A stretch of DNA of 64,000 nt from Anaeromyxobacter paludicola (GTDB taxonomy: Bacteria > Myxococcota > Myxococcia > Myxococcales > Anaeromyxobacteraceae), in assembly GCF_023169965.1 (NCBI RefSeq), contig NZ_AP025592.1, forward strand, positions 1,550,001 through 1,614,000. Direction: 5' to 3'. Each line of letters opens with the position of its first letter. Position 1 is the first letter of the stretch. Of this stretch, positions 11,982 through 46,065 are shown one piece after another. Both the position numbers and the translations under genes were made by a program. The notes below the pieces were generated by a model. The model was not told where the DNA came from. It ran no database searches and was given only the letters and a program-made list of their open reading frames with translations.

Positions 11982-14150
<2,169 letters not shown>

Positions 14151-14298
14151 GTACACCTCTTCAAGCGGGTTGACCGGCGCTCGCGCCGGGCGGCGGCGCC
14201 CGCGAGGTGCTTCAGTTCCTGACTGCAGCGCCCCTCCGGCGAGAGGCGATCCAATCGGAAACGGAAGCTCCTCCCTGAGGCGCCGCCTGGATGCGACA

Positions 14299-14325
14299 GC
14301 GCCCCGGCCTTGCGAGCCGGGGCGC
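14299..14325 (-). terminator. strong hairpin between rpsO and pnp
   Basis: A perfect 10-bp stem (GCGCCCCGGC pairing with GCCGGGGCGC) with a 7-base loop lies 12 bases after the rpsO stop. On the minus strand it is followed by TGTCGC rather than a U-run, so partial termination or RNase processing is more likely than full termination. The rest of the 187-base gap shows nothing else definite. Confidence 0.55.
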
Positions 14326-14337
14326 CGTGGCCTTCGA

Positions 14338-14607
14338 CTACTTGCGGATGCCGAGGCTGTCGATCAGCGCCTTGTAGCGGTTCTGGTCGACGGTGCGGAG
14401 GTAGTCGAGGAGCCGGCGCCGCTGGCCGACCAGCTTCAGCAGGCCGCGGCGGCTGTGGTGGTCCTTCTTGTGGGTCTTGAAGTGCTCGGTCAGGTAGGTG
14501 ATCCGCTCGGTGAGCAGGGCGACCTGGACCTCGGGGGACCCGGTGTCGCTGTCGTGACGGCGGAACTTCTGGACGAGCTCGGACTTCTTCTCCTGGACCA
14601 ACGCCAT
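14338..14607 (-). CDS. rpsO: 30S ribosomal protein S15
   Basis: An 89-residue protein with the complete S15 pattern ([48 protein letters not shown]). It binds the central domain of 16S rRNA early in small-subunit assembly. The ATG at 14607 gives the standard length and follows GAAAGGAAG; an upstream in-frame GTG at 14664 would add 19 atypical residues and is rejected. It has its own promoter in the truB-rpsO gap and is followed by pnp, the usual order. Confidence 0.98.
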
Positions 14608-14696
14608 AGATGCTTCCTTTCGGGTGACCGCCAGGACCGTCGCTGGGGCGAAGGCGCGCGCCACGGGCGACAGTGCGGGCGGGAGTGAGGGGTGTG

Positions 14697-14726
14697 TTAC
14701 TAAGCGATCCGGGGGCTTGCCGTCAA
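14697..14726 (-). promoter_or_regulatory. rpsO promoter
   Basis: On the minus strand TTGACG (14721-14726) overlaps the truB stop codon; 18 bases later comes TAGTAA (14697-14702). This gives a leader of about 80 bases before rpsO, room for S15 autoregulation. Confidence 0.6.
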
Positions 14727-15625
14727 TTCGTTCCTTGGAGCACCCGCACCGGCTTGAGCCTCCCGCCGGACGGCTCGCACACCGCCAGCACCTCGCCCCC
14801 CGGTCCCAGCGCCACCGAGTACCCCGGAGGCACCTCCGGCAAAGGGAGGAGGCGACCGTGGCGCAGATCGCGCGCCTCCCCCTCGGAGAGCCGGACGGCC
14901 GGCAGGAAGCCGAGCGCCGCCTCGAGCGGCACCAGCCGGGCGGCGAGGGCGGCGGGGGTCTCGCGCCCGAGCCGCTCCGCCTCCTCGAGGGGGATGGACT
15001 GCTCGAGCCGGAACGGGCCGGCCGCGGTGCGCCGCAGCGCGGCGAGGTGCGCCGGCAGCCCGAGCGCGCGGCCGAGATCGACCGCCAGGGTGCGGACGTA
15101 GGTGCCCTTCCCGCAGGCGACCCGGAGGCGGGCCATCGCCCGCCCCTCCCGCGGCGGCTCGAACCCGAGGAGCTCGAGGGCGTCCACGCGGACGGTGCGC
15201 GGCTCGCGCGCGACCTCCTCGCCCCGGCGGGCCGACTCGTGGAGCCGGCGCCCGTCCACCCGGACCGCGGAGTACATCGGCGGCACCTGGCGGAGCTCGC
15301 CGACGAAGGCCGGCAGCGCGGCGCGCACCCGGGCCTCGTCGAGGCCGGCGGGGTCGCGCACCTCGACCAGCTCGCCCTCGGCGTCCTCGGTGGTGGTGGA
15401 GGCGCCGAAGGCGACCAGGGCCTCGTAGGCCTTGTCGCCCTCCATGAGGAAGCGCTGCAGCTTGACCGCCTCGCCGAGGCAGACCCCCAGCACGCCGGTG
15501 GCCGCCGGGTCGAGGGTGCCGGTGTGACCGGCCTTCTCGCGCCCGAAGAGGCGCGACACCCGGCGCACCACGTCGAAGCTCGTGGGGCCGGCGGGCTTGT
15601 CGACGACGAGGACGCCGGTGGTCAC
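14723..15625 (-). CDS. truB: tRNA pseudouridine(55) synthase
   Basis: A 300-residue pseudouridine synthase. The catalytic Asp lies in [13 protein letters not shown] (about residue 39), preceded by the [11 protein letters not shown] motif and followed by [18 protein letters not shown] and the [18 protein letters not shown] block. It makes psi-55 in the T-loop of tRNAs and acts as a tRNA chaperone. A PUA-like C-terminal part (about 240-300) is present. The GTG start lies eight bases after the rbfA stop. It is part of the rimP-nusA-infB-rbfA-truB operon, whose gene order is widely conserved. Confidence 0.96.
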
Positions 15626-15633
15626 GGGCGCGC

Positions 15634-15999
15634 CTACTTCTTCCAGCCTTCCTTCTCGGAGACTTCCCGGAGGAGCCGGTCGATCTTGTCCCCCTCCTCG
15701 ATGCTCTCGTCGTACGAGAAGCGGAGGTTCGGGACGAGGCGCAGCTTGAGGTTCCGCGCCACCTCGCGCTTGAGGTAGCCGGCGGCGGCGGCGAGGCCGG
15801 CCATGGTCTGCTTCTTCACCGGCTCGTCGCCGTGGACGGAGACGTAGACGGTGCAGTCGCGCAGGTCGGGCGACATCTTGGCGCCGGTGACGGTGATGAA
15901 GCCGCCGATGCGCGGGTCCTTGAGTCCCCGCGCGATGAGCGCCGAGACCTCCCGCTGGACGTCGTGGGCCACGCGGGCCGGGCGGTCGTGGGTGCTCAT
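15634..15999 (-). CDS. rbfA: ribosome-binding factor A
   Basis: A 121-residue KH-type fold protein that binds the 30S subunit late in maturation and under cold conditions. Recognisable by RPARVAHDVQREVSALI at the N-terminus, the DPRIGGFITVTGAKMSPDLRD segment and LRLVPNLRFSYDESIEEGD towards the C-terminus. Length is standard. The ATG overlaps the ylxP stop (ATGA). Confidence 0.95.
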   Translation of the reverse strand: MSTHDRPARVAHDVQREVSALIARGLKDPRIGGFITVTGAKMSPDLRDCTVYVSVHGDEPVKKQTMAGLAAAAGYLKREVARNLKLRLVPNLRFSYDESIEEGDKIDRLLREVSEKEGWKK

Positions 16000-16379
16000 G
16001 GGTTCTCGTCCTTGTCCCAGTCCTCTTCCATGGCCTCGGCCTCCGCCTCGGCCAGGGTCCGCGCGCCGCCCTGCCCCAGCGAATCGCCGTAGCTCGCGAT
16101 CTCGAGGACCCGATCGATGATCTGCACCTGCCCGCCGTGCATGGAGCCGACGAAGTCGGCCACCTTGTCGAGGGTCTCGTTCACGAAGGCGTGGTCGTTG
16201 CCGACGGCGGCGACGCCGACCACGCTGCGCTGCCAGAGGTCGTTGTCCCCGACCTCCGCCACCGACACGTTGAACCTGGCCTTCACCCGGTCGATGGCCG
16301 AGCGGAGGAGGTGGCGCTTGGACTTCAGCGAGCCGGGCTCGGGCAGGTAGAGCGTCAGCCGCAGGATGCCCACGAACAT
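15996..16379 (-). CDS. ylxP: YlxP-like DUF503 protein
   Basis: A 127-residue protein of the DUF503 family, identified by LTLYLPEPGSLKSKRHLLRS and RFNVSVAEVGDNDLWQRS, and by its position between infB and rbfA, which is the usual one in Gram-positive and myxobacterial genomes. The role is not settled; the location suggests translation or ribosome maturation. The last 20 residues are very acidic (AEAEAMEEDWDKDE), longer than the core family. Translation is coupled to rbfA. Confidence 0.85.
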   Translation of the reverse strand: MFVGILRLTLYLPEPGSLKSKRHLLRSAIDRVKARFNVSVAEVGDNDLWQRSVVGVAAVGNDHAFVNETLDKVADFVGSMHGGQVQIIDRVLEIASYGDSLGQGGARTLAEAEAEAMEEDWDKDENP

Positions 16380-16400
16380 GACGCCCTACCTCTCTCTCGC

Positions 16401-16419
16401 GCCGGCCGCCGGCGGCCGG

Positions 16420-16420
<1 letters not shown>
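16401..16420. other. 20-bp perfect palindrome at the infB stop
   Basis: A loopless palindrome, GCCGGCCGCC followed by its complement GGCGGCCGGC, ends on the first base of the infB stop codon. In RNA it would form a tight hairpin between infB and ylxP and may slow ribosomes or protect the mRNA end. There is no U-run. Confidence 0.5.
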
Positions 16421-19170
<2,750 letters not shown>

Positions 19171-19181
19171 GAACCCGTCTC

Positions 19182-19455
19182 CTAATCCTTACGCCAACTT
19201 CCCGTCAACTGTCCGCGGAGCAGGTCGCCGTCGACGACCACTGCCCGCCGGAAGGCCCGCCCGAACGCCTTCCGCTTCAGCGCCCGCTCCAGGCACGCCG
19301 GGGCGGGGTGCAACCAGGCGCCCCGCCCCCCCGAGCGCCGGCGGTCGATCGCGACCGCCTCCCCCGCCACCACCAGCCGGACCAGCTCCGCGCTGGGGGC
19401 CTTGCCACCGCACCCGACGCAGGTGCGCTCGGGGCGGACCGCCCCGGCGCCCCCG

Positions 19456-19484
<29 letters not shown>
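19182..19484 (-). CDS. ylxR: YlxR-family (DUF448) RNA-binding protein
   Basis: A 100-residue basic protein with the family signature RTCVGCGGKAPSAELVRLV (about residues 19-37) and the basic C-terminal ALKRKAFGRAFRRAV. YlxR proteins in this operon position are proposed nucleoid- or RNA-binding regulators. The ATG at 19484 makes a 29-base overlap with the end of nusA; the first 17 residues are not conserved-looking, so a shorter start is possible. Operon position between nusA and infB is classical. Confidence 0.87.
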
Positions 19485-21111
<1,627 letters not shown>

Positions 21112-21116
21112 CACGT

Positions 21117-21638
21117 CTACTCCTTCTTGTGCAGGTCGGCCTCGAAGTCGTACTCGAGGTTGGCCTTCGCGATCTTCTCGTGCGGGATCCGGTGGAGCTG
21201 TCCGTCCACGTCCACCTCGACCATCCCGTCGCGGAAGCCGCGCAGCGTTCCGGTCCAGTTCTTCCGGGGCCCGACGCCGGGGGCGGCCGGCGCGGTCTCC
21301 ACCGGCCCGTAGGTCTTCACGTGCACGCGCTCGCCGGCGAAGCGCTCGAAGTCCTTCGGCTTCCGCAGCGGCCGGTTCACCCCGGGCGAGGAGACCTCGA
21401 GCGCGTAGGCCGGCTCGATGACGTCCTCGACGTCGAGGATGGGCTCCACGGTCCGGGACGCGGCCTGGCAGTCGTCGATGGTGACGCCGCCCGCCTTGTC
21501 GATGTAGAGGCGCAGGACCCAGGCGCCGCCCTCGCGCTGCCACTCCACCTCGACGAGCTCGTAGCCGTCGGCCTCGAGCACGGGCTCGACGACGCGGCGG
21601 ACCTGCTCGACGGTGGACTCGGAGCCGATGGCGGACAT
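21117..21638 (-). CDS. rimP: ribosome maturation factor RimP
   Basis: A 173-residue protein needed for late 30S assembly. Features: VVEPVLEADGYELVEVEWQREG at the N-terminus, DKAGGVTIDDCQAASRTVEPIL and LEVSSPGVNRPLRKPKDFERF, then the Sm-like C-terminal barrel (TGTLRGFRDGMVEVDVDG). The ATG at 21638 gives the family length; the open frame extends upstream to 21803 but those residues run through the promoter and attenuator. First gene of the operon. Confidence 0.96.
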   Translation of the reverse strand: MSAIGSESTVEQVRRVVEPVLEADGYELVEVEWQREGGAWVLRLYIDKAGGVTIDDCQAASRTVEPILDVEDVIEPAYALEVSSPGVNRPLRKPKDFERFAGERVHVKTYGPVETAPAAPGVGPRKNWTGTLRGFRDGMVEVDVDGQLHRIPHEKIAKANLEYDFEADLHKKE

Positions 21639-21645
21639 GTTTCCA

Positions 21646-21681
21646 GAAAAAGAAAAAAGTGGGCGCTGCCGCTGCCCACTT
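21646..21681 (-). terminator. intrinsic terminator/attenuator in the rimP-nusA leader
   Basis: On the minus strand AAGTGGGC pairs perfectly with GCCCACTT (loop of 9) and runs straight into TTTTTTCTTTTTC. The RNA 3' end would fall only about 8-10 bases before the rimP ATG. It is the clearest intrinsic terminator in the window, yet it stands between the promoter and the first gene, so it must act as an attenuator. A second hairpin (CCGGGC/GCCCGG, 21689-21703) lies just upstream and could be part of an alternative fold. Confidence 0.85.
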
Positions 21682-21719
21682 TCGTAACCGGGCGAGGCCC
21701 GGGGCGAAAATGTGCGGTG

Positions 21720-21748
21720 TAGGTAACAAATACACGCCGCCCGGTCAA
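21720..21748 (-). promoter_or_regulatory. promoter of the rimP-nusA-infB operon
   Basis: On the minus strand TTGACC (21743-21748), a 17-base spacer, then TACCTA (21720-21725). The -35 is good and the -10 is weak. The predicted leader is about 75 bases and contains the attenuator. Confidence 0.55.
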
Positions 21749-21855
21749 GGAATGCCGGATTGCGCCTCCGGGGGAGCCCGGGCGCGGCGGCACCGCCGGT
21801 CACGGCCGGTCCGGGGCCGGCCGGCGGGCGCCGGCGACCCCCGTCCCCGCGACGG

Positions 21856-22371
21856 CTAGAGCCGGACCTGCACCTCGTAGCGCCGGTTCCTCGCCTTCTT
21901 GGCGGGCGTGTCGTCGGGCTTCACCAGCGGCCGCTCCGACCCGACCCCGACGGCGGTGATGTCGCCGGACGGAACGCCCTTCGCGGCGAGCTCCTTCTTC
22001 ATCCGCTCGGCGCGGCGCTGCGACAGCTCCCGGTTATGGGCGGCGCTGCCCGAGGTGTCGGTGTGGCCGGACACCTCGAACTTGAAGTTCTCGACCCCGG
22101 CCGACTGCAGCCGCCTCTTCGCGTCCACGAGCGCGCTGGCGAGCCGCTTCGCCTTGGGGTCGCAGCCGGGGGCGAGCTCGTCGGAGTCGGTCTTGAACGA
22201 GCACTGGTTCTTCCGGCTCTCGGCGAGCAGCCGCTTGTTGAGCTCCTTCTCCAGCTTCCCGACGGCCGCGCCGCCGACCGCCTTCTTGCCGAGCTCCCAG
22301 GCGGTCTGGGCGCGGGAGGTGGCGGGGATCGCGGCGAGGGCGAGCAGGGCGGCGAGGGCGAGGCGGGTCAT
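21856..22371 (-). CDS. OmpA-like peptidoglycan-binding protein
   Basis: A 171-residue secreted protein: signal peptide (residues 1-21, ending SRA-QTA), a short helical spacer, then an OmpA C-terminal domain (about 60-171) with FEVSGHTDTSGSAAHNREL, the signature SQRRAERMKKELAAKGV, and NRRYEV. This domain grips diaminopimelate of peptidoglycan. There is no beta-barrel and no lipobox, so it is a soluble periplasmic OmpA-fold protein. Two Cys (57 and 70) flank the domain start and may form a disulfide. AGGAG lies upstream of the ATG and a TAGACT -10-like box at 22410-22415. Confidence 0.87.
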   Translation of the reverse strand: MTRLALAALLALAAIPATSRAQTAWELGKKAVGGAAVGKLEKELNKRLLAESRKNQCSFKTDSDELAPGCDPKAKRLASALVDAKRRLQSAGVENFKFEVSGHTDTSGSAAHNRELSQRRAERMKKELAAKGVPSGDITAVGVGSERPLVKPDDTPAKKARNRRYEVQVRL

Positions 22372-22409
22372 GGGGGGTCTCCTGGATCGGCGCGGAAGGG
22401 CCGGAGAAG

Positions 22410-22415
22410 TCTAGC
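22410..22415 (-). promoter_or_regulatory. possible -10 of the OmpA-like gene
   Basis: TAGACT on the minus strand, 38 bases before the ATG. The -35 region is not convincing. Confidence 0.35.
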
Positions 22416-22454
22416 GACCGCCGCGGGCGCCCTGGAGGGGACCCGAAGGGGGGA

Positions 22455-23075
22455 TCAGCTCCGGGCCGGCTCCGGCGGGACCGGGTGATCCGGGAGGTGC
22501 GCCACCACGTCCGACACGCTGCCGGGGGCGCGCAGCGCGGCGATCACCTCGGGGAGTGGCTCGGCCCAGACCGAGCGCGAGTCCCACTCGCCCGGCCCGG
22601 TCGCGGCGTAGGCGAGCCGCTCGTGGGGCGGGTCGAACCGGGCGTCGAGCCAGAGCTTGTTGCCCCGCGGGTCGAGCCGGTACCAGCCCACGCCCGGCAG
22701 GTCCACCGCGGCGAGGCCGTGGAGCGAGAAGGTGCCGTTCCGGTTGGCGAGCCGCTGGTAGCTGAAGCCGGCCTTGAGCCCGCTGGCCCGCAGGAGGGCC
22801 ACGAGGAGGTGGCTCTTCGCGAAGCAGAGGCCGGTGCCGGCGGCGAGCACCTCGGAGGCGGCGCAGGTCACCTGCTCGTCGCCGGCGTCCACGCTGTGCC
22901 GGAGCCGGTCGCGCACGTGCTCGAAGCAGCGGCGCGCCACCTCCACCGGGCCGGCGGCGCCGGCGGCGAGCTCGCGCGCCAGGGCGAGGACGGCGGGCGC
23001 GTGCCAGTCCACCACCGGCGTGGCGCGCAGGTAGGCGCTGCCCTCCCCCTCCCCGGCCGGCGGCGCGCCGCTCAC
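22455..23075 (-). CDS. transglutaminase-like cysteine protease-fold protein
   Basis: A 206-residue cytoplasmic protein with the transglutaminase-core triad: Cys in GTGLCFAKSHLLVALLRASG, His in FSLHGLAAVDLPG and Asp in WYRLDPRGN. Prokaryotic members act as peptidases or amidases as well as cross-linkers. The GTG at 23075 is chosen because it overlaps the tlyA stop (GTGA); an upstream start at 23108 would add 11 unremarkable residues. No signal peptide. The C-terminus is Pro-rich. The substrate is unknown; the gene order dxs-tlyA-this suggests only co-expression. Confidence 0.78.
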   Translation of the reverse strand: MSGAPPAGEGEGSAYLRATPVVDWHAPAVLALARELAAGAAGPVEVARRCFEHVRDRLRHSVDAGDEQVTCAASEVLAAGTGLCFAKSHLLVALLRASGLKAGFSYQRLANRNGTFSLHGLAAVDLPGVGWYRLDPRGNKLWLDARFDPPHERLAYAATGPGEWDSRSVWAEPLPEVIAALRAPGSVSDVVAHLPDHPVPPEPARS

Positions 23076-23821
23076 GGCCGCCCCGCGAGCCGCAGGCCGA
23101 GCAGCCACTCGCGGTTCCCGGCGGGGCCCTCGATGGGCGACTCGGCGTGGCCGAGCACCTCGAACCCGAGCGCCCCGGCCGCGGCGGCCACCGCCTCGAG
23201 CGCCTCGCGCCGCTTCGCCTCGTCGCGCACCACGCCGCCCTTCCCCACCTCGCCCTTGCCGACCTCGAACTGCGGCTTCACGAGCAGGATGGCCTCCCCG
23301 CCGTCGGCCAGGATCGCGCGCACGGCGGGCAGCACGAGCTTGAGCGAGATGAACGAGAGGTCGCCCACCGCCAGGTCCACCCGCTCGCCGAGCGCCTCCG
23401 CGGTGAGGTGCCGCGCGTTCTCGCGCTCGCGCACCACCACCCGGGGATCGTTGCGGACCTTCGGGTGAAGCTGGCCGTAGCCCACGTCCACGGCGTACAC
23501 CTTGCGGGCGCCGCGCTGCAGGAGCAAGTCGGTGAAGCCGCCGGTGGAGGCCCCGAGGTCGGCGCAGACCTTGCCGCGCGGGTCCACCGGGAACGCCGCG
23601 AGCCCCTTCTCCAGCTTGAGCGCGCCGCGCGAGACGTACCGCTGCGGCGCGGCGTCGCCCTTGATCCGGAGCGGCAGGTCCGGGTCCACCAGCGCGCCGG
23701 GCTTGTCCACCCGGGCCTCGCCCGCGACCACCGCGCCCGCCATCACCAGGGCCTGGGCCCGGGTCCGGGACTCGGCGAGCCCGCGCTCCACCAGCAGGAG
23801 GTCGATGCGCTGCTTCTTCAC
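23072..23821 (-). CDS. tlyA: TlyA-family rRNA 2'-O-methyltransferase (S4 + FtsJ-like)
   Basis: A 249-residue protein: an N-terminal S4 RNA-binding domain (QRIDLLLVERGLAESRTRAQAL, 1-60) and a Rossmann methylase (KVCADLGASTGGFTDLLLQRGA SAM motif; AVDVGYGQLH; DLSFISLKLVLP; KPQFEVGKGEVGKGGVV). TlyA enzymes methylate ribose C1409 of 16S and often C1920 of 23S rRNA, which affects capreomycin sensitivity; some are called hemolysins for historical reasons. GTG start overlapping the dxs stop (GTGA... on the minus strand). It has the long-type N-terminal S4 arm. Confidence 0.92.
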   Translation of the reverse strand: MKKQRIDLLLVERGLAESRTRAQALVMAGAVVAGEARVDKPGALVDPDLPLRIKGDAAPQRYVSRGALKLEKGLAAFPVDPRGKVCADLGASTGGFTDLLLQRGARKVYAVDVGYGQLHPKVRNDPRVVVRERENARHLTAEALGERVDLAVGDLSFISLKLVLPAVRAILADGGEAILLVKPQFEVGKGEVGKGGVVRDEAKRREALEAVAAAAGALGFEVLGHAESPIEGPAGNREWLLGLRLAGRP

Positions 23822-25728
23822 GCGACGGTGCGCTTCGCCCGGTCGCCGAGGAGGGCGCGGCAGGCGCGCGCCACGCCCTGCGCGTCGAGGCCGTACGCGG
23901 CGCGCTGCTTGCCGGCGTCGCCGTGGGTGACGAACTCGTCGGGCAGGCCGAGCCGGGTGACCTGGAGCCCGGGCAGGAGCTTCGCGCGCTCGAACGCCTC
24001 GAGGCAGGCGGCGCCGAAGCCGCCCTCGAGGCAGCCCTCCTCCAGGGTGACCACGCGCTTCGCGGTCCGGGCGAGCCCGCAGAGCAGCTCCTCGTCGAGC
24101 GGCTTCACGAAGCGGGCGTCCACCACCGCGACCGAGATCCCCTCCGCCTCGAGCTCGTCGGCGGCGGTGAGGGCGGCGGCGAGGGGGGTGCCGATCGAGG
24201 CCACGAGCACGTCGGGCCGGGCCCCGCCCTGCCGGACCACCCGCCCCTTGCCGAGCGGGAGCACCTTCGGCGCCGGATCGAGCTGCACGCCGACCCCGGA
24301 GCCGCGCGGGAAGCGGAAGGCGGCGGGGCCGTCGTGGGCGAGGGCGGTGGCGAGCATGTGGCGCAGCTCGTTCTCGTCCGACGGCGCCATCACCACGAGG
24401 TTCGGGACGCAGCGCAGGTAGGCGAGGTCGAACGCGCCCTGGTGCGTCTTGCCGTCCGCGCCCACCAGGCCGCCGCGGTCGAGGGCGAAGGTGACCGGCA
24501 GCTTCTGCAGCGCCACGTCGTGGATGATCTGGTCGTAGGCCCGCTGCAGGAAGGTGGAGTAGATGGCGACCACGGGCCGGACGCCCTCGCAGGCGAGCCC
24601 GGCGGCGAAGGTCACCGCGTGCTGCTCGGCGATGCCGACGTCGTAGGTGCGCTCCGGGAACCGGTGCTTCGCCTTGATGAGCCCGGTCCCCTCGAGCATG
24701 GCGGCGGTGATGGCGACCACCCGCTTGTCCTGCTCCATCTGCTCGCAGAGCGCCTCGGCGAACAGGTCGGTGTAGGCCTTCACGGCCGGCTTCTTGGCCA
24801 CGCTCTTGCCGGTGGCGATGTCGAAGAAGGAGAGGCCGTGGCCGCGGGTGGCGGCGTCGCTCTCGGCCGGGCGGTAGCCCTTGCCCTTCATGGTGACGGC
24901 GTGCACCAGCACCGGGCCGTCGCAGGTGAGGAGCTTCTTGAAGGTCTCGACCAGCCCCACCACGTCGTGCCCGTCCACCGGCCCGACGTACTGGAACCCG
25001 AGCCCCTCGAAGAGGATGCCCGGGGTGACGAGCGCCTTGGTCGCGTTGATGGCGTGGCGGATGACCTTGATGGCCTCCGGCCCCTTCGGCACCACCGTGA
25101 GGACGTCCTTCACGGTGCGGCGCCAGCGGTTGAAGGTGCGCGAGGCGAACTTCTTCGAGAACCACTCCGAGAGCGCGCCCACGTTGGGCGAGATCGACAT
25201 CTCGTTGTCGTTGAGCACGACGAGCAGGTCGCGCCCGAGGTAGCCGGCCTGGTTGAGCCCCTCGAACGCCACGCCGCCGGTGAGGGCGCCGTCACCGACG
25301 AGGGCGACCACCTTGCCGGCCTGCCCGTTCATGCGGCGCGCCTCGAGGATGCCGAGGCCGGCGCTGATGGCGGTGGAGGCGTGGCCCACGCCGAAGGCGT
25401 CGTGGGGCGACTCGTGCCGCTCCGGGAAGCCGGCCAGCCCGCCCTCGGTGCGGATGGTCTGGAACGCCTCGCGGCGGCCGGTGAGGAGCTTGTGCGCGTA
25501 GGCCTGGTGGCCGACGTCGAACACGATGCTGTCCACCGGGGAGTTGAGGACGTAGTGGAGCGCCACGTTGAGCTCGACGGCGCCGAGCGACGCGCCGAGG
25601 TGGCCGCCGTTCCTGGCGCAGGTGGCGATGATCTCGTCGCGGATCTCCTGGCAGAGCCGGGGGAGGTCGGCGGGCTTGAGCCGCTTCAGGTCGAGCGGGG
25701 AGTCGATGCGATCGAGCAGGCGGGTCAT
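23818..25728 (-). CDS. dxs: 1-deoxy-D-xylulose-5-phosphate synthase
   Basis: A 636-residue thiamine-diphosphate enzyme starting the MEP isoprenoid pathway from pyruvate and glyceraldehyde 3-phosphate. The ThDP motif GDGALTGGVAFEGLNQAG ... LNDNEMSI is near residues 150-185, and the transketolase pyrimidine-binding domain has DVGIAEQHAVTFAAGLA. GVGHASTAISAGLG and DRGGLVGADGKTHQGAFD are family hallmarks. A 132-base gap upstream holds a promoter-like pair and a dyad. Downstream tlyA overlaps. The typical ispA neighbour is absent here. Confidence 0.97.
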   Translation of the reverse strand: MTRLLDRIDSPLDLKRLKPADLPRLCQEIRDEIIATCARNGGHLGASLGAVELNVALHYVLNSPVDSIVFDVGHQAYAHKLLTGRREAFQTIRTEGGLAGFPERHESPHDAFGVGHASTAISAGLGILEARRMNGQAGKVVALVGDGALTGGVAFEGLNQAGYLGRDLLVVLNDNEMSISPNVGALSEWFSKKFASRTFNRWRRTVKDVLTVVPKGPEAIKVIRHAINATKALVTPGILFEGLGFQYVGPVDGHDVVGLVETFKKLLTCDGPVLVHAVTMKGKGYRPAESDAATRGHGLSFFDIATGKSVAKKPAVKAYTDLFAEALCEQMEQDKRVVAITAAMLEGTGLIKAKHRFPERTYDVGIAEQHAVTFAAGLACEGVRPVVAIYSTFLQRAYDQIIHDVALQKLPVTFALDRGGLVGADGKTHQGAFDLAYLRCVPNLVVMAPSDENELRHMLATALAHDGPAAFRFPRGSGVGVQLDPAPKVLPLGKGRVVRQGGARPDVLVASIGTPLAAALTAADELEAEGISVAVVDARFVKPLDEELLCGLARTAKRVVTLEEGCLEGGFGAACLEAFERAKLLPGLQVTRLGLPDEFVTHGDAGKQRAAYGLDAQGVARACRALLGDRAKRTVA

Positions 25729-25783
25729 GGGGTGCCCTCCGGATTCCGGGTCCCGCCGGGTCGGCGCGGGCCGCGAGGCACAC

Positions 25784-25814
25784 CTTCTACCACGGGGTGC
25801 CTGGACATTTTCAA
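25784..25814 (-). promoter_or_regulatory. possible dxs promoter
   Basis: On the minus strand TTGAAA (25809-25814), then 19 bases, then TGGTAGAAG, an extended -10 (hexamer 25784-25789). The spacer is long. The -35 sits inside the dyad at 25808-25827. Confidence 0.4.
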
Positions 25815-25827
25815 TGCTCGTTGAAAA
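25808..25827. promoter_or_regulatory. AT-rich dyad, candidate operator
   Basis: TTTTCAA - TGCTCG - TTGAAAA: 7-bp perfect arms, six-base centre, unusually AT-rich for this genome. It overlaps the possible -35 of dxs. It could also contribute to termination of the upstream receiver gene. Confidence 0.5.
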
Positions 25828-25844
25828 CCGGGGCGTCCCGCCCC
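25823..25844 (-). terminator. terminator-like hairpin after the receiver gene
   Basis: On the minus strand GGGGCG pairs with CGCCCC (loop GGA) and is followed by GGTTTTC. A short but plausible intrinsic terminator separating the xseAB-receiver unit from dxs. Confidence 0.5.
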
Positions 25845-25860
25845 GCGTGGGCGCCGCGCG

Positions 25861-26277
25861 CTAGGCGGGGGTCGCGAGGCCGGCCGCCCGCTGGTCGAGG
25901 ATCTCGCGGATGCGGGCGATGAGCCGGTCCATGTCGAGCGGCTTCGGGAAGTAGTCGATGGCCCCCGCCTCCATGCCGGCCCGCTCGTCCTCCACGCTCT
26001 TGCGGGCCGAGATGAAGATGACCGGGATGTCGGTGAAGCCGGCGTTCTTCTTGATGGCCCGGCAGAGCTCGAACCCGTCGATCCAGCTCATCATGACGTC
26101 GAGCAGGATCACGTCGGGCCGATCGACGTGCATGGCCGAGATGAGCCGCAGGCCGTTGGCGGCCTGGGACACCTCGAAGCCCTCCAGCTCCAGCGCGAGC
26201 GTGAGCATCTCGCGGGTGTCCCGGTCGTCGTCCACGATGATGACCTTGGGCCTGCTCATGGGAGCCTCGGTCGTCAT
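25861..26277 (-). CDS. single-domain response regulator in the xseAB-dxs cluster
   Basis: A 138-residue receiver: acidic DDD near residues 16-18, phospho-Asp in [17 protein letters not shown] (about 59), and the Lys in FPKPLD. No output domain. The motif [13 protein letters not shown] is typical of the PleD/CheY-like type. The ATG at 26277 overlaps the xseB stop (ATGA), so it is translationally coupled to exonuclease VII. This place is usually taken by ispA in proteobacteria. No kinase is adjacent. A downstream ATG at 26259 ([12 protein letters not shown]) is an alternative start. Confidence 0.9.
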
Positions 26278-26555
26278 CCGTTGCCCTTGCCCGCGGCCTC
26301 GAGCGGGACCGCCTCCTCCCCGCCGTCGGCGTTGCGCACCAGGACCTCCACCCGCCGCTCCGCCTCGTCGAGCTTGCGGCTCGCCTCGCGCGCCAGGCGG
26401 ACGCCCTCGGCGAACTTCTCGATCGACGCCTCGAGCGGCAGGCTGCCGGACTCGAGCTCGCCCACCACCTGCTCGAGCCGCGCCACCAGCGCGTCGTACG
26501 CCTCGCCGGCCTGACTGTCGTCCTTCGCGTTCGGGCGTTCGCTGGTCGGGCTCAA
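26274..26555 (-). CDS. xseB: exonuclease VII small subunit
   Basis: A 93-residue helical protein with the XseB core ([35 protein letters not shown]). It partners XseA to degrade single-stranded DNA. Start is TTG, supported by a good GGAGGA four bases away and by standard length; no ATG or GTG fits. It lies 21 bases after xseA and overlaps the receiver gene. The C-terminal tail (about 75-93) is longer than in E. coli. Confidence 0.92.
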
Positions 26556-26576
26556 GCTTCCTCCGGTTGCGTTGAC

Positions 26577-28031
26577 CTAATCACGAGTGGAACCCCGTTC
26601 AACCGAGGCGGTCTTCCCCGGCCCGCTTCCGGGTTCCCCGGCGCGCGACCGGCCCGGCAACGGATCGCTTCCTGCATCGACCCCGGTCACCACCACGTCG
26701 AGCCAGCCCTCGGACAGCGCCAGACGCAGCGCGTCACCGGCGGCCGCCTCGCCGCTGCGCCGGAGCACCCGGTCCTGCGCGAGTGCAAGAGCGAAGCCGC
26801 GCTTCAGCACCTCCGCCACGTTGGCCGGAGCGAGCCGGGACTTCAGCCTTTCCAGCCGGAGCTCCTCGCGACGGAAGGTGGCGGCCTGCCACGAACCGAG
26901 GCGGCGCGTGGCGGCCTCTGCCCGGGACGCGAGCAGGCGGAGGCGTGCCCGCGGCTCCTGGCGCTGGAGCCGGCCCCGCAGGGACTCCTGCCGCTGCCGC
27001 TCCTCCCGGAGCCGCTCGCGGACGCTCCCCTCCCCGGCGCGCAGCAGATCCTCGAGCCGGTGGCGCTGCTCGGAGAGAAGGTGCTTCGGATCGGAGAGCT
27101 CCGCCTTGAGCGCCCGCAGCTCGCGCCGCCGCCCCGCCACCGCCTCGCCCGCCGCCCGCGTGAGCCTGGCGCGGAGCGCGCGGAGCCCGGCCTCGAGCTC
27201 GTCCTTCACCGGCGCGACCAGCTCGGCGGCGTGCGTCGGCGTGGCGGCCCGCACGTCGGCGACCAGGTCGGCCACGGTGACGTCGATCTCGTGCCCGACC
27301 GCGCTCACCACCGGCACCGGGCAGGCGGCGAGCGCCCGCGCCAGCCGCTCGTCGTTGAACTCGAAGAGATCCTCCTGCGACCCGCCGCCGCGGGTGACGA
27401 CGATGACGTCCACCCCGGCTCGGCAGAGCCCCTTCACCGCGGCGGTCACGGTGGCCGCCGCCCCCGCCCCCTGCACCCGGCAGGGCGCCACCAGCACCGG
27501 CAGCCCCGGGAAGCGGGCGTGCAGGACGCGGAGGAAGTCCTTGAGCGCCGCGGCGGTGGGGCTGGTGGCCACCCCCACCCGGCGGGGCAGGAACGGGAGC
27601 GCGCGCTTGCGGGCCGGGTCGAGGAGCCCCTCGGCGAGGAGCCGCTCCTTGAGCTGCTGGAGCAGGAGCGCCTGCGCGCCCGCGCCCCGCGGCTCGAGCT
27701 CGTTCACGACGAGCTGGTACTTGCCGTGGGGCGGGTAGATCTCGACGAAGCCGCGCGCCAGCACCTCCTGCCCGTCCTTGGGCGCGAACGGGAGCCGCCG
27801 GGCCGCCGACGCCCAGACCACCGCGTTGACGCAGGCGCCCTCGTCCTTGAGCGAGAAGTAGAGGTGGCCGCTCGACTGCCGGCGCAGGTTCGCCACCTCG
27901 CCCGAGACCCAGACGTCCTTGAAGCGCGGCTCGACCGCGACCCGCAGCGCCCGCGTCAGCTCGGACACCGAGATCGCGCGCGGCTTCACCTGCGCGAAGA
28001 GATCGCCCGTCTCGCCTGCCCTGGCCGCCAC
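26577..28031 (-). CDS. xseA: exonuclease VII large subunit
   Basis: A 484-residue protein: N-terminal OB fold ([24 protein letters not shown], about 40-105), the catalytic domain with [19 protein letters not shown] and [35 protein letters not shown], then long coiled-coil helices (about 275-400) that bind XseB. It cuts single-stranded DNA from both ends. GTG start; the stretch before it carries TAGGGT six bases upstream. The C-terminal 45 residues are low-complexity Gly/Ser/Pro/Arg. Confidence 0.95.
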
Positions 28032-28037
28032 CCCTGG

Positions 28038-28043
28038 ACCCTA
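28038..28043 (-). promoter_or_regulatory. -10-like hexamer six bases before the xseA start
   Basis: TAGGGT on the minus strand, six bases, then GTG. It matches the spacing found before moaDE, trmJ and the 63-kb regulator, but the hexamer itself is a poor consensus match. Confidence 0.25.
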
Positions 28044-28057
28044 CCGCGCCGGTCCGA

Positions 28058-28834
28058 CTAGCGCTGCCCCGCGGCGCGCCGGCCGGCCCGGGCGGGCGCG
28101 CGCAGCTCGAGGAGGGTGGAGAGGAGGGCGTCCATGTCCTCCTGCGAGCGGAGCCGCCACCGGGCCTTCGAGGCGCCCGGGCCGACGCGCACGCCCTCGA
28201 CCCGCGGGGGGCCGAGCGCGAACACGTCCTCGTCGGTCACGTCGTCCCCGCAGAAGATGGCCTGCGCGCTCCCGGTCTCCTTCAGGAGCCGGCGGACCGC
28301 GTCGCCCTTGTTCGGGAAGCTCGCCGGGACGCAGTTGAGGACGTGCTTGCCGTGCACCAGCCGGGCGCCGTCGAGGCCGGCCGCGGCGGCGTGCACCGCC
28401 TCCTCCACCCGGCGCCACTGCCGCTTCAGCCCGTAGTGGATCGAGAGCGTCGAGACCTTGTCCTCGATGAAGTAGCCGTCCACTCCCTCGAGCGCGGCCT
28501 CGAGCGCGCCGACCCAGCGCCGGACGCGGGCCACGGTGGCCCGGGGGACCTCGCGGGCGCAGCCGTGCTCGAAGCCGTGGTTGCCGACCACGGTGGCGCA
28601 GGCGCCGGACACGAAGGCGGCGGCGTCCTTCCAGGCGCGGCCGGAGACCACCGCCACCGGGTAGCGCTCCGCCAGCGCCGCGAGGAGCCGCTTGGTGCCC
28701 GGGCGCATGTGGGCGCCCTGCGGGGTGCGGGCGAGCGGCGCGAGGCAGCCGTCGTAGTCGAAGGCGACGAGGAGCCTGCCCTCCGCCAGGCGGCGGAGCT
28801 CGGGCAGGTGGCGCGAGGCGAGGATGTCCAGCAT
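28058..28834 (-). CDS. otsB: trehalose-6-phosphate phosphatase
   Basis: A 258-residue HAD-superfamily enzyme. Motif I is FDYDGCLAPLA (about 24-34), with VSGRAWKD, VGNHGFEHG and the GDDVTDEDVFAL motif IV. It removes phosphate from trehalose-6-phosphate to give trehalose. A synthase (otsA) is not in the window, so the substrate must come from a distant gene or a fused enzyme. It starts 37 bases after hemH; GGAAGG precedes the ATG. Coupling to haem genes appears positional only. Confidence 0.92.
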   Translation of the reverse strand: MLDILASRHLPELRRLAEGRLLVAFDYDGCLAPLARTPQGAHMRPGTKRLLAALAERYPVAVVSGRAWKDAAAFVSGACATVVGNHGFEHGCAREVPRATVARVRRWVGALEAALEGVDGYFIEDKVSTLSIHYGLKRQWRRVEEAVHAAAAGLDGARLVHGKHVLNCVPASFPNKGDAVRRLLKETGSAQAIFCGDDVTDEDVFALGPPRVEGVRVGPGASKARWRLRSQEDMDALLSTLLELRAPARAGRRAAGQR

Positions 28835-28871
28835 GGTGCGGTCCTTCCAGGGGCGAAGCGGGGCGGTGGGG

Positions 28872-29831
28872 CTAGGCGGCGCGGGCGCCCGCGGCGAGCC
28901 CCTGGCGGACCACGTCGGCGAGGGCCTCGACGAAGGCCGGCCGCGTGCCGAGCGCCGGCACGCGCCAGTAGCCGGCGGCGCCGGCCTCCTCTGCCGCGGC
29001 CCGCGCCAGGATGTCGAGATCGTAGAGGGTCTCGAGGTGCTCGGAGACGAAGGCGACGGGGACGGTCACCACCGCCTTGCCGTGGGCGTGCTCGCGGAGG
29101 AAGTCGATGGTGTCGGGCCCGAGCCACTTCACCGGCCCGACGCGGCTCTGGTAGGTGACCTGGTACGAGCCCGCCACCCCGGCGCGCTCGGCGGCGCCGC
29201 GCGAGGAGATCTCGACGTAGTCGGGGTACGGGTCGCCCTTCTTCACCTGGCTCATGGGCAGCCCGTGGGCGCTGAACACCACGAGCAGCTTCTCCCGGAG
29301 CTCGGGCGGGACGATCGCCAGGGTCTCGGAGAGCGCCGCCGCGGAGGCGTCCAGGTAGCCGGGGTGGTCGTGGTAGGTGCAGACCTCGGCGAGGGGCAGC
29401 TCGCGCGGCCAGCGCCGGCGCAGCTCCTCGAGCGAGCTGCGGGTGGTGGCGTTGGCCCACTGCGGGTAGAGCGGCAGGGCGACCGCCTGCGTGGCGCCGG
29501 CGGCGAGCGCCTCGGCGACGCCCTCGGCGGTGTCGGGGTGGCCACAGCGCATCGCGAGGTGGCAGCTGAAGTCGGGGCCGAGGGCCGCCTCGAGCGCCCG
29601 CGCCTGCGCCTGCGTCCCCTCGACGAGGGGCGAGCGGCCGCCGATGAGCTGGTACTTCTCCGCCGAGGACGGGGCGCGGAAGTGGCTGATGAGCTTCGCG
29701 AGCAGCCGCCGCACCGGGCCGAGCGGGATCGACAGCACGGCCGGGTCGCTGAAGAGGTCGTACAGGTAAGGCTCGACCTCGTCGAGGCTCCGCGGCCCGC
29801 CCAGGTTCATCAGGAAGACCGCGGTCTTCAT
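28872..29831 (-). CDS. hemH: ferrochelatase
   Basis: A 319-residue class I ferrochelatase-fold enzyme. VFLMNLGGPRSLDEVEPYL at the start, catalytic His in VVFSAHGLPMSQV, the acidic face SEHLETLYDLD. It inserts iron into porphyrin. There are no Cys residues arranged for a [2Fe-2S] cluster at the C-terminus. The ATG abuts the hemN stop with no gap, so the pair is coupled. Members of this family in organisms using the coproporphyrin branch insert iron into coproporphyrin III; with HemN present, which makes protoporphyrinogen IX, the protoporphyrin route is favoured. Confidence 0.96.
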   Translation of the reverse strand: MKTAVFLMNLGGPRSLDEVEPYLYDLFSDPAVLSIPLGPVRRLLAKLISHFRAPSSAEKYQLIGGRSPLVEGTQAQARALEAALGPDFSCHLAMRCGHPDTAEGVAEALAAGATQAVALPLYPQWANATTRSSLEELRRRWPRELPLAEVCTYHDHPGYLDASAAALSETLAIVPPELREKLLVVFSAHGLPMSQVKKGDPYPDYVEISSRGAAERAGVAGSYQVTYQSRVGPVKWLGPDTIDFLREHAHGKAVVTVPVAFVSEHLETLYDLDILARAAAEEAGAAGYWRVPALGTRPAFVEALADVVRQGLAAGARAA

Positions 29832-31211
29832 CTACACCGTCCTCGAGAAGGTGGTCTTCTGGCCGGCGTGCTTCGGCAGGTAGGCGTCGAAGAGCATCGC
29901 CACGTTCCGGACCAGCAGCCGCCCGAGCGGCGTCACCGAGAGGAGGTCGCCGTCGAAGGTGACGAGCCCGTCGGCCTGGAGCTCCTTCACCCCGGTCTGG
30001 AGCGAGGCCTCGATGGTCTGGCGCGCCTCGGCGCCGAACTTCTCGGCGATCTCGCGCAGGTCGAGCCGGAAGAGGCACATGACCCGGTTGATGGTGAACC
30101 GGCGGAGCACGTCGTCGGCGGTCTGCACCGTGCCCTTCTGGACCGGGAGCTTGCCGGCCTCGACGAGATCGCCCCAGTCCTTGAGCCGGTGGGCGTTCTG
30201 GGCGTAGCAGCCGCCGACGTCGGAGATCGACGTCATGCCGAAGGCGACGGTCTCGTCGGCGTGGCGGGTGGTGTAGCCCTGGAAGTTGCGGGTGAGGTAG
30301 CCCTCGTCCTGCGCCCGCGCCAGCTCGTCCGACTCGAGCGCGAAGTGGTCGAGGCCGATCTGCCGGTAGCCGGCGTTGCCGAAGGTCTCGGCGGCGGTGA
30401 GGAAGAGCTGCACCCGCTGCTCGGTGGTGGGGAGCTCGGAGACCGGCAGGAGCTTCTGGTGCGGCTTCGCCCAGGGCACGTGCGCGTACCCGAACACCGC
30501 CATGCGGTCGGGGTGGATGGCGAGGATCCGCTCGAGCGTGTGCCGCCAGCTGTCGAGCGTCTGGAACGGCAGGCCGTAGATGAGGTCGAGGTTCACGCCC
30601 TCGAAGCCGTTGTCCCGGGCCGCCTGCACGAGGTCGGCGGTCTCCTTCTCGGTCTGGATCCGGCCGACCGCCTGCTGGACGCGGGGCTCGAAGTCCTGCA
30701 CGCCCATGGAGATGCGGTTGAACCCGAGCCTGGCGAGGAGCTCCACCTGGGCCCGGCTGGTGATGGCCGGATCGACCTCGATCGACTGCTCCGCCTCCTT
30801 CGGCACGTGGAAGTGCTTCGTGAGGATGTCGTGGCAGCGCTGCAGCTGCTTCAGGTCGAGGAAGGTGGGGGTGCCGCCGCCCCAGTGGAGCTGCGTCACC
30901 TCGCGCCGGTGCGGGAGGCGCGCGGCCACCAGCGCCACCTCCTTCTCGAGCACGTCGAGGTAGCCGTCGGGGCGCGTGCGATCGTGGGTCGCGATGACGT
31001 TGCAGCCGCAGAACCGGCACATCTCGCGGCAGAACGGCAGGTGGACGTAGATCGAGACCGGGCCGCCCTGCGCGTCGGCGCGGGCGAGGTGCTCCTCGTA
31101 CGCCTGCGCGCCGAAGGCCTCGGTCCACTCCGGCGCCGTGGGGTAGCTCGTGTAGCGCGGGCCGGGCCGGTCGTACTTCTTGATGAGCTCCAACGGCGGG
31201 ATCTGGATCAC
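29832..31211 (-). CDS. hemN: oxygen-independent coproporphyrinogen III dehydrogenase
   Basis: A 459-residue radical-SAM enzyme. The cluster motif CREMCRFCGC (about residues 61-70) holds the three Cys (CxxxCxxC) and the fourth HemN-type Cys. GGGTPTFL, the HWGGGTPTFLDLKQL stretch and the C-terminal domain (FGMTSISDVGGCYAQN; FRLDLREIAEKFG) are HemN hallmarks, as opposed to HemW. It decarboxylates two propionates without oxygen, suiting an anaerobic or facultative life. GTG start overlapping the hemE stop (GTGA). Confidence 0.97.
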   Translation of the reverse strand: MIQIPPLELIKKYDRPGPRYTSYPTAPEWTEAFGAQAYEEHLARADAQGGPVSIYVHLPFCREMCRFCGCNVIATHDRTRPDGYLDVLEKEVALVAARLPHRREVTQLHWGGGTPTFLDLKQLQRCHDILTKHFHVPKEAEQSIEVDPAITSRAQVELLARLGFNRISMGVQDFEPRVQQAVGRIQTEKETADLVQAARDNGFEGVNLDLIYGLPFQTLDSWRHTLERILAIHPDRMAVFGYAHVPWAKPHQKLLPVSELPTTEQRVQLFLTAAETFGNAGYRQIGLDHFALESDELARAQDEGYLTRNFQGYTTRHADETVAFGMTSISDVGGCYAQNAHRLKDWGDLVEAGKLPVQKGTVQTADDVLRRFTINRVMCLFRLDLREIAEKFGAEARQTIEASLQTGVKELQADGLVTFDGDLLSVTPLGRLLVRNVAMLFDAYLPKHAGQKTTFSRTV

Positions 31212-44811: not shown

Positions 44812-46065
44812 CTAGATCCCCTCTCCGCCCCAGGGGCCGTTGGGGGAGCCGGGCGAGGAGGGCCGCCCGCCCATCCCGCCCGCGCCGCTCGATCCGCTGC
44901 CGCCCCAGGTCTTGCCCGGGCCGAAGCGCGACCAGTCGGAGAGGCGCGCCAGCTGCGCCCGGAGATCGGGCGAGAAGGCGCCGCCGGCCACCGACTGGCG
45001 CAGCCAGCGGATGAGCGACTCGCCCCAGGGGATCCGCGCGAAGCGGTCGTCCAGGATGGGCGACGGGCCGAAGGGCGGGAGCAGCACGTCGTTCGAGGGC
45101 TGCGACAGCGCCCGCTCCTGGCCGCGGCGGTCGAGCAGGTGCACCTCGGCGCGGTAGACGCGGCCCGGCTCGAGGTCGTGGACGTAGAAGCTGCGCGACT
45201 CGAGCGCGAACTCCATCGTGCGCACCCGGTCCCAGCCGCCGTCGGCGCGCTGGCCGAACACCCAGAGCTGCGCCCGCGCCGACTCGAGGCCGTGGAAGGC
45301 CGCGGCGAGGGTGTCGTGGTTGTAGTCCCAGTAGAGGAAGAGGGTCCTGGGATCGCGCGGCAGGGCCACGAAGGCGTCGTCGCCGTAGCTCCAGGGCAGC
45401 TCGCCCAGCCCCTCGTCGTAGGCCGGGTGCGGCGCCGGGGCGGGCTCGTCGCCGGCGGGGGCGCGGGCGCGGAGCACGTCCTCCTCCTCCGCGGCCTCCT
45501 CGGCGGCCTGGTCCTCGAGGTCCTCGGCGTCGAGCGCCGCGCCGGGCCGGGCCTTCTTGCGCGACCGCTCCAGCGCCCCCTCGGTCATGGGGTGCGGCGA
45601 CTTCTTGGCCTCGGCCTCGCCGCGCACCCGGGCGACGAAGTAGCTCTCCGGATCGGGCTCCTCCTCGCCGCGCGCCGCCGCCACCACCGCGCGCGCGCCG
45701 GCCACCGCGGCCGCGGCCGCCGCCTCGGCGGTCTCGCGGAGGGTCTGCACGGCGCGCCCGGCGCGCTGCGCCGCCCGGCCGGCCTTGCCGGCCGGCTTCT
45801 TCTTCGCGCCGGCCTCCCGCTTCTCCCGCGCGGCCTTGCGCGCACGCTCGGCGCCGCCCTGCGCCTCCTCCACCACCTTCTGGGTGGCCCGGGCGGCGCG
45901 GCCGGTGGCGCGCTTGACCGTGTCGGCCGCCTTCCCAGCTTTCTTCTCCGCCGCCTCGAGCGCGGCCACGAGCTCACTCTTCGTCAACTTGGAGTACCCG
46001 CGGCCGAGCGCCTTGCGCGCCAGAGCGCGAAGCGCCTGCACCGTCATGTTCTTGAAGTCGGCCAT
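44812..46065 (-). CDS. SAP/Rho-N plus DUF4912 protein
   Basis: A 417-residue protein. N-terminus: a Rho-N/SAP-like helix-turn-helix (MTVQALRALARKALGRGYSKLTKSELVAAL in parts, residues 6-37), often nucleic-acid binding. Then an Ala/Lys-rich histone-like tail (40-140), an acidic stretch (180-205), a DUF4912 domain (about 230-360, LPWSYGDDAFVALPRDPRTLFLYWD, FYVHDLEPGRVYRAEVHLLD), and a Gly/Pro-rich end. DUF4912 proteins commonly sit next to GH57 enzymes, as here, with a three-base gap. Function is unknown; a carbohydrate- or glycogen-linked role is inferred from context. ATG at 46065; a TACAAA -10-like box lies about 55 bases upstream. Confidence 0.8.
   Translation of the reverse strand: MADFKNMTVQALRALARKALGRGYSKLTKSELVAALEAAEKKAGKAADTVKRATGRAARATQKVVEEAQGGAERARKAAREKREAGAKKKPAGKAGRAAQRAGRAVQTLRETAEAAAAAAVAGARAVVAAARGEEEPDPESYFVARVRGEAEAKKSPHPMTEGALERSRKKARPGAALDAEDLEDQAAEEAAEEEDVLRARAPAGDEPAPAPHPAYDEGLGELPWSYGDDAFVALPRDPRTLFLYWDYNHDTLAAAFHGLESARAQLWVFGQRADGGWDRVRTMEFALESRSFYVHDLEPGRVYRAEVHLLDRRGQERALSQPSNDVLLPPFGPSPILDDRFARIPWGESLIRWLRQSVAGGAFSPDLRAQLARLSDWSRFGPGKTWGGSGSSGAGGMGGRPSSPGSPNGPWGGEGI

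Follow-up and report, generated by a model that had tools for sequence, protein, structure and literature searches.

In Anaeromyxobacter paludicola the rimP-nusA-infB operon is probably controlled by an attenuator of the rimP-leader type with a built-in antiterminator, in which a kinetic race between two RNA folds would be shifted to termination by NusA. The terminator is of a known type, and the competing fold seems to be a new element. The initial annotation of the window, the whole stretch of 64,000 nucleotides analysed here, had placed an attenuator with NusA feedback between a promoter and this operon; that proposal agrees with our findings and is sound, and, the idea having been published for other bacteria, it is not new. 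The features of the locus are as follows.

21856-22371, minus strand: OmpA-family gene adjoining the leader upstream, ending at 21856
21720..21748, minus strand: promoter-like TTGACC-N17-TACCTA with TGn before the second hexamer, a candidate promoter
21713..21713, minus strand: putative transcription start, the A of ACATTTTCG, placed by spacing 7 nt past the second hexamer
21705..21712, minus strand: antiterminator 5' arm CATTTTCG, pairing with the shared arm and invariant in 23/23 family loci
21688..21702, minus strand: inner hairpin CCGGGC-CTC-GCCCGG, around which the antiterminator helix closes in folding
21677..21684, minus strand: shared arm CGAAAGTG, the antiterminator 3' arm, overlapping the terminator 5' arm
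21656..21682, minus strand: putative intrinsic terminator hairpin AAAGTGGGC / GCCCACTTT with a GGGc...gCCC core
21647..21655, minus strand: interrupted U-tract TTTCTTTTT
21117..21638, minus strand: rimP (Pfam RimP_N 3.4e-29, RimP C-terminal domain 6.9e-13)
19456..21111, minus strand: nusA (Pfam NusA_N, S1, NusA-like KH; start taken from the reading frame)
19182..19484, minus strand: ylxR (Pfam YlxR)
16420..19170, minus strand: infB (Pfam IF-2, IF2_N)

On the minus strand the hexamers TTGACC (21748-21743) and TACCTA (21725-21720) are separated by a 17-nt spacer; the first is a fair -35 (5/6 to TTGACA), the second is poor (2/6 to TATAAT), and a sigma-70 consensus scan of 12000-31000 returned no site at its thresholds, this one included. 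TTGAC lies 36-39 nt ahead of CATTTT in all 23 family loci. After TACCTA come ACATTTTCG, the CCGGGC/GCCCGG hairpin, CGAAAGTGGGC-loop-GCCCACTTT, TTTCTTTTT, 8 bases and the rimP ATG at 21638, which gives a predicted leader of about 75 nt, with no ATG for a leader peptide when inspected by eye. The 74-nt leader has a folding energy of -31.2 kcal/mol (z = -3.4), and none of 200 shuffles was equally stable. As the OmpA-like gene upstream has the same orientation, with its end at 21856, the leader hairpin could in principle be its terminator; we consider this hardly credible and rejected it on the absence of the gene elsewhere and the conservation of the leader. By tblastn the gene was found in one of 30 loci, the window's own, and in none of the other 29, where the upstream DNA searched ran from ~225 to 1500 nt, whereas the leader is present in 23/23 family loci; besides, the conserved promoter-like sequence intervenes between the gene and the hairpin. 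The leader element therefore goes with the downstream operon.

The arms of the terminator hairpin, AAAGTGGGC at 21682-21674 and GCCCACTTT at 21664-21656, form 9 bp around a loop of 9; the hairpin of the initial annotation is present, with a stem one pair longer than had been written. The base of the stem is AAA/TTT, that is weak A-U pairs; 17 nt separate the stem end at 21656 from the ATG at 21638, and 8 nt separate the end of the U-tract from it. Its description as the strongest intrinsic terminator holds roughly: a hairpin-plus-T score of 30.6 makes it second in the 64 kb, the top score of 34.2 belonging to a plus-strand site at 45775 whose tail is poor, and of six Markov-shuffled windows one scored higher than the hairpin, at 34.6. 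A terminator scan of 12000-31000 did not list the hairpin, whose loop of 9 exceeds the limit of 8, and gave 2 terminator-like sites against 5.3 in shuffles. Given the second rank, the higher score in one Markov window and the miss by the consensus scan, the single sequence is not decisive; it is weak evidence for an attenuator, and conservation of the predicted element is what settles its reality.

Of the 24 family genomes, the own one included, 23 yielded RimP, and CATTTTCG, CGAAAGTGGGC and GCCCACTTTT are present in all 23 family leaders. In the order, 138 of the 145 genomes yielded RimP, and 134 had a single match each to a covariance model of 50 leaders, these leaders themselves matching by construction. 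The proposed layout of promoter-like sequence, leader, predicted terminator and rimP is thereby confirmed, and the check on whether the hairpin is kept in relatives was borne out (23/23 family loci, 134/145 order genomes). All but one of the 134 matches lie before rimP, the remaining one directly before nusA; 132 are on the same strand 6-150 nt before the RimP match, and in G068 the match precedes a rimP that was matched only over residues 51-169. There was no second match at E <= 0.01 in any order genome, with stricter search filters applied above 40 genomes, and a regulon of several such leaders was ruled out by the single match per genome in 134/145. RimP-bearing order genomes without a model match numbered 4/138 (G054, G126, G158 and G159). 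In G126 (L236/L058) nusA lies next to rimP, but the searches gave neither leader nor terminator, and rimP seems to start soon after a promoter-like sequence; G158 (L061), G054 (L062) and G159, at 2.1-2.7 Mb, are small for the order, and the leaders L061 and L062 keep, by reading, a G+C-rich hairpin with a T-run. G125 has kept the terminator and has no 5' arm.

The competing fold arises from the very beginning of the predicted transcript, whose first bases CAUUUUCG can pair with CGAAAGUG through 8 pairs, one of them G-U. Since the strand CGAAAGUG overlaps the terminator arm AAAGUGGGC, the full antiterminator and terminator helices are mutually exclusive; partial forms of the two can coexist in folding. 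The initial annotation had suggested an upstream hairpin at 21689-21703 as the competitor; that hairpin is real, its coordinates one base off (21702-21688), and as a competitor on its own it was ruled out, as it coexists with the terminator in folding, the rival fold being the helix CAUUUUCG/CGAAAGUG that encloses it. By eye the inner hairpin carries one C-G to G-C change between the own genus and other genera in alignment A1, which leaves out L026 for its duplicated hairpin. This leader (genome G004) has two tandem copies of the inner hairpin, which widen the gap between the antiterminator arms from ~20 to ~40 nt.

Folding the window RNA at increasing lengths gave a computed order of events, with an antiterminator probability of 1.00 at 38-52 nt, 0.82 at 54 nt, 0.38 at 56 nt and ~0.15 from 60 nt on. 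The full-length leader favours the terminator at equilibrium, so that a switch would need kinetics or a factor. RNAalifold predicted the terminator on whole leaders, and the antiterminator helix once the leaders had been trimmed to the stretch bounded by the 5' arm and the shared arm, a trimming that favours the helix. Two conserved helices that share one arm and exclude each other make up a terminator/antiterminator switch, which may be used as such in cells.

Covariation was assessed on alignment A2 of 50 order leaders, comprising 9/23 family loci (for redundancy) and 41/47 other order loci. The omitted leaders are two lacking a terminator (L039, L058), one lacking the 5' arm (L057), two that have diverged (L061, L062) and one that the pattern missed (L055); omission of L057, L061 and L062 biases A2 towards the antiterminator. 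In the antiterminator helix 92.4% of cells are paired and 58 are double-changed, with a score of 0.313; controls in which the partner was slid by 1 to 3 columns reached at most 62.2% paired, 10 double-changed cells and a score of 0.101, a comparison in which the antiterminator has an advantage, its structure being derived from the same sequences. None of 500 shuffles reached the helix in paired percentage, double-changed cells or score. Pairs with change on both sides were 4 against 3.4 in shuffles (196/500 reach 4), and further pair types were 17 against 14.1 (13/500 reach 17). Two of the five covariation measures do not stand out above the shuffles, and the main reading does not rest on these two. 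The 58 double-changed cells are confined to the last four pairs (20, 18, 6 and 14), while the first six pairs never change on both sides; many of the double-changed cells represent one length shift common to related genomes. The lengths of the pyrimidine run in the 5' arm and of the purine run in the shared arm vary together, 4+3 in 27 loci and 5+4 in 21, with 5 loci in other combinations and 17/70 not parsed; family f24 contains both run lengths (L028 vs L040 and L041). The terminator helix over the same 50 leaders is 99.8% paired, yet nearly invariant. The elements, their conservation and the covariation of the competing helix are shown by the sequences themselves.

Each leader was also truncated after the terminator 5' arm and folded against 100 mononucleotide shuffles of its upstream sequence. 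At p <= 0.05 this test was passed by 20/23 family leaders and 22/44 other order leaders, where the poor score of L026 is due to a folded span of 45 nt that excludes its 5' arm, and L034 went unscored despite its hairpin. Elsewhere in the phylum our own scan found a terminator-like hairpin in 26/40 leaders, and 2/26 passed at p <= 0.05, a rough figure as the chosen hairpin is distant in several leaders outside the order (L205, L206, L223). In L215 and L218, by eye, CAUUUAG may pair with CUAAGUG. This distribution bears on a rival reading, in which the leader has a plain rimP-leader terminator and the upstream helix, no antiterminator, serves at the 5' end to shield the mRNA or to make polymerase pause. 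A highly conserved helix at the predicted 5' end would suit such a role, as would the scarcity of the helix among hairpin-bearing leaders elsewhere in the phylum; however, the helix pairs with a strand that the terminator needs, this overlap is kept across the order, and a protective hairpin has no evident reason for sharing a terminator arm, and we regard this reading as unlikely.

Signs of the element were also looked for beyond the phylum. A collection-wide pattern scan gave at least 119 stretches, most of them by rough estimate chance or repeats, and tblastn with the window RimP and NusA, which would miss divergent RimPs, found rimP in 17 among the matches listed. In 15 of these 17 the element lies just before rimP on the same strand, 14 being assigned to the order and one (L190) to a Desulfocapsa MAG; also among the matches listed, the element of L088 (a Nitrospina MAG) is ~5 kb from rimP and that of L171 (Butyrivibrio) is on the opposite strand. 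Further matches listed fall on several contigs of single genomes, with a palindromic pattern: L087, L096, L099, L107 and L121 in one Gammaproteobacteria MAG, L076, L085 and L150-L152 in one Pacebacteria MAG, and L077, L105 and L133 in one Lysobacteraceae genome, and these might be akin to dispersed repeats. A search of 59 genomes from the phylum to which the Desulfocapsa genome G194 belongs gave RimP in 52, and 30 leaders were examined; counted by eye, and with two leaders identical, 24/30 had the hairpin, 19 of those with GTGGG, and 7/24 passed the antiterminator test. Two leaders of that phylum have a tRNA gene shortly before rimP (L239 at 361-433, L243 at 1331-1402), which may be likened to metY before rimP in E. 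coli, as stated in a source excerpt. Overall, other phyla share the terminator core, whereas a strong antiterminator is mainly found in this order, with scattered signs outside.

Among known systems the closest is the rimP-leader named by Naville & Gautheret 2010 (PMC2965389), which in the passages of that paper drawn on here has a GGGc...gCCC terminator and U-stretch 4-130 nt before rimP in rimP-nusA-infB, with NusA proposed as effector; rimP is there ranked first among genes predicted to be under attenuation control. The window element lies before rimP-nusA-infB, has a GTGGGC...GCCCAC stem followed by a T-tract, and its stem ends 17 nt from the ATG, within the 4-130 nt. It fits the definition of a rimP-leader and has an antiterminator in addition. 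In those passages an antiterminator is not visible in the general form, except for a tandem form in several Gammaproteobacteria (PMC2965389), whereas here a covarying antiterminator at the predicted 5' end recurs across the order. The tandem form likewise precedes this operon, and the cited passages (PMC2965389) ascribe to it an antiterminator as well as an upstream CCCg...cGGG terminator; the present leader, in contrast, has one terminator, its upstream hairpin having by reading no U-run. The Rfam model RF01770 (rimP) probably stands for the tandem form, as it matched only E. coli among 14 controls. At a gathering score of 47 bits RF01770 was found in 0/39 phylum genomes, the E. coli control matching, and in the window there was no match in 19000-23500 at E <= 5. 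A known Rfam family was ruled out, Rfam at gathering scores on seven loci giving two tRNAs only. A search of titles and abstract starts of open-licence papers on rimP/nusA leaders, attenuation, antiterminators and Myxococcus returned nothing on this group.

An attenuator of the B. subtilis nusA operon (ylxS) was reportedly described by Mondal et al. 2016. Excerpts of two papers state that B. subtilis NusA represses its own operon through an intrinsic terminator in the leader (the review PMC12288461, and PMC6200986); the present leader likewise has such a terminator, for which dependence on NusA would be expected, and these excerpts mention no antiterminator, unlike the case here. According to the portion of PMC8060035 used, terminators of B. 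subtilis dependent on NusA and those dependent on NusG both have distal U-tract interruptions, and terminal A-U/G-U stem pairs are found chiefly in NusG-dependent ones. The present terminator resembles these: its stem has a weakly paired base (AAA/TTT) and its U-tract is interrupted, the latter in 23/23 family loci, the two features sought in a NusA-dependent attenuator. RNA-seq of S. agalactiae gbs0413-gbs0418 is described, in the extract of PMC4448216 consulted, as giving a short leader transcript that ends at a predicted terminator before rimP-nusA-infB, with NusA feedback proposed and termination 31 nt from the start site; 31 nt is probably too short for the folding seen here.

As NusA feedback has been reported or proposed for these other leaders of the operon, it argues against a reading in which the same two folds sense another signal, be it RimP, IF2, a ribosomal protein or nucleotide levels at the initial T-run. 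The 5' arm is kept beyond what pairing needs, with U-G in 43/50 leaders where C-G would do, which such a signal could explain; we nevertheless hold it to be rather improbable. Initiation slippage at the T-run was considered as well, with evidence neither for nor against. RimP as the signal is further disfavoured by genome G073 (98% complete, 1% contamination), where the leader has remained at nusA-infB while rimP lies elsewhere. Its leader at C10:25663-25732 lies 70 nt before the match of its sole NusA at C10:25802 with no rimP between them, and its sole RimP is on contig C153, where a terminator scan found none. Contig C10 alone shows the leader directly before nusA. This argues that in G073, one genome whose rimP contig could be misplaced, the leader serves nusA-infB rather than rimP, a hint that the leader serves NusA (or IF2) and not RimP.

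In the NusA-governed attenuator that we favour, the first nucleotides CAUUUUCG would pair with CGAAAGUG on emergence, around the inner hairpin, and the resulting helix would mask the terminator 5' arm in its lower part and leave the GGC of its GGGC end unpaired. The emerging GCCC would nucleate at this free GGC and displace the antiterminator, so forming the terminator over the interrupted U-tract, and stop or escape would be decided by a race of strand displacement against elongation. NusA made from the operon would slow polymerase and help weak terminator hairpins to close, with more termination at high NusA and more readthrough at low NusA. More tentatively, and with clearly less confidence than in the attenuator itself, we suggest an order-wide, ligand-free kinetic switch in which the antiterminator is made by the first nucleotides of the transcript, a free toehold lets the terminator invade it, and polymerase speed, hence the NusA carried, is what the outcome reports; the element might then belong to nusA and not to rimP, as is suggested by the single genome whose rimP is displaced.

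The general rimP-leader, with no antiterminator visible in the excerpted account (PMC2965389), had left open how readthrough is set. Here the opposing helix is short, fixed in place and supported by covariation, so that control could be tested by point changes within ~75 nt. The leader would thereby offer a small natural system for measuring the effect of NusA on a race between two RNA folds.
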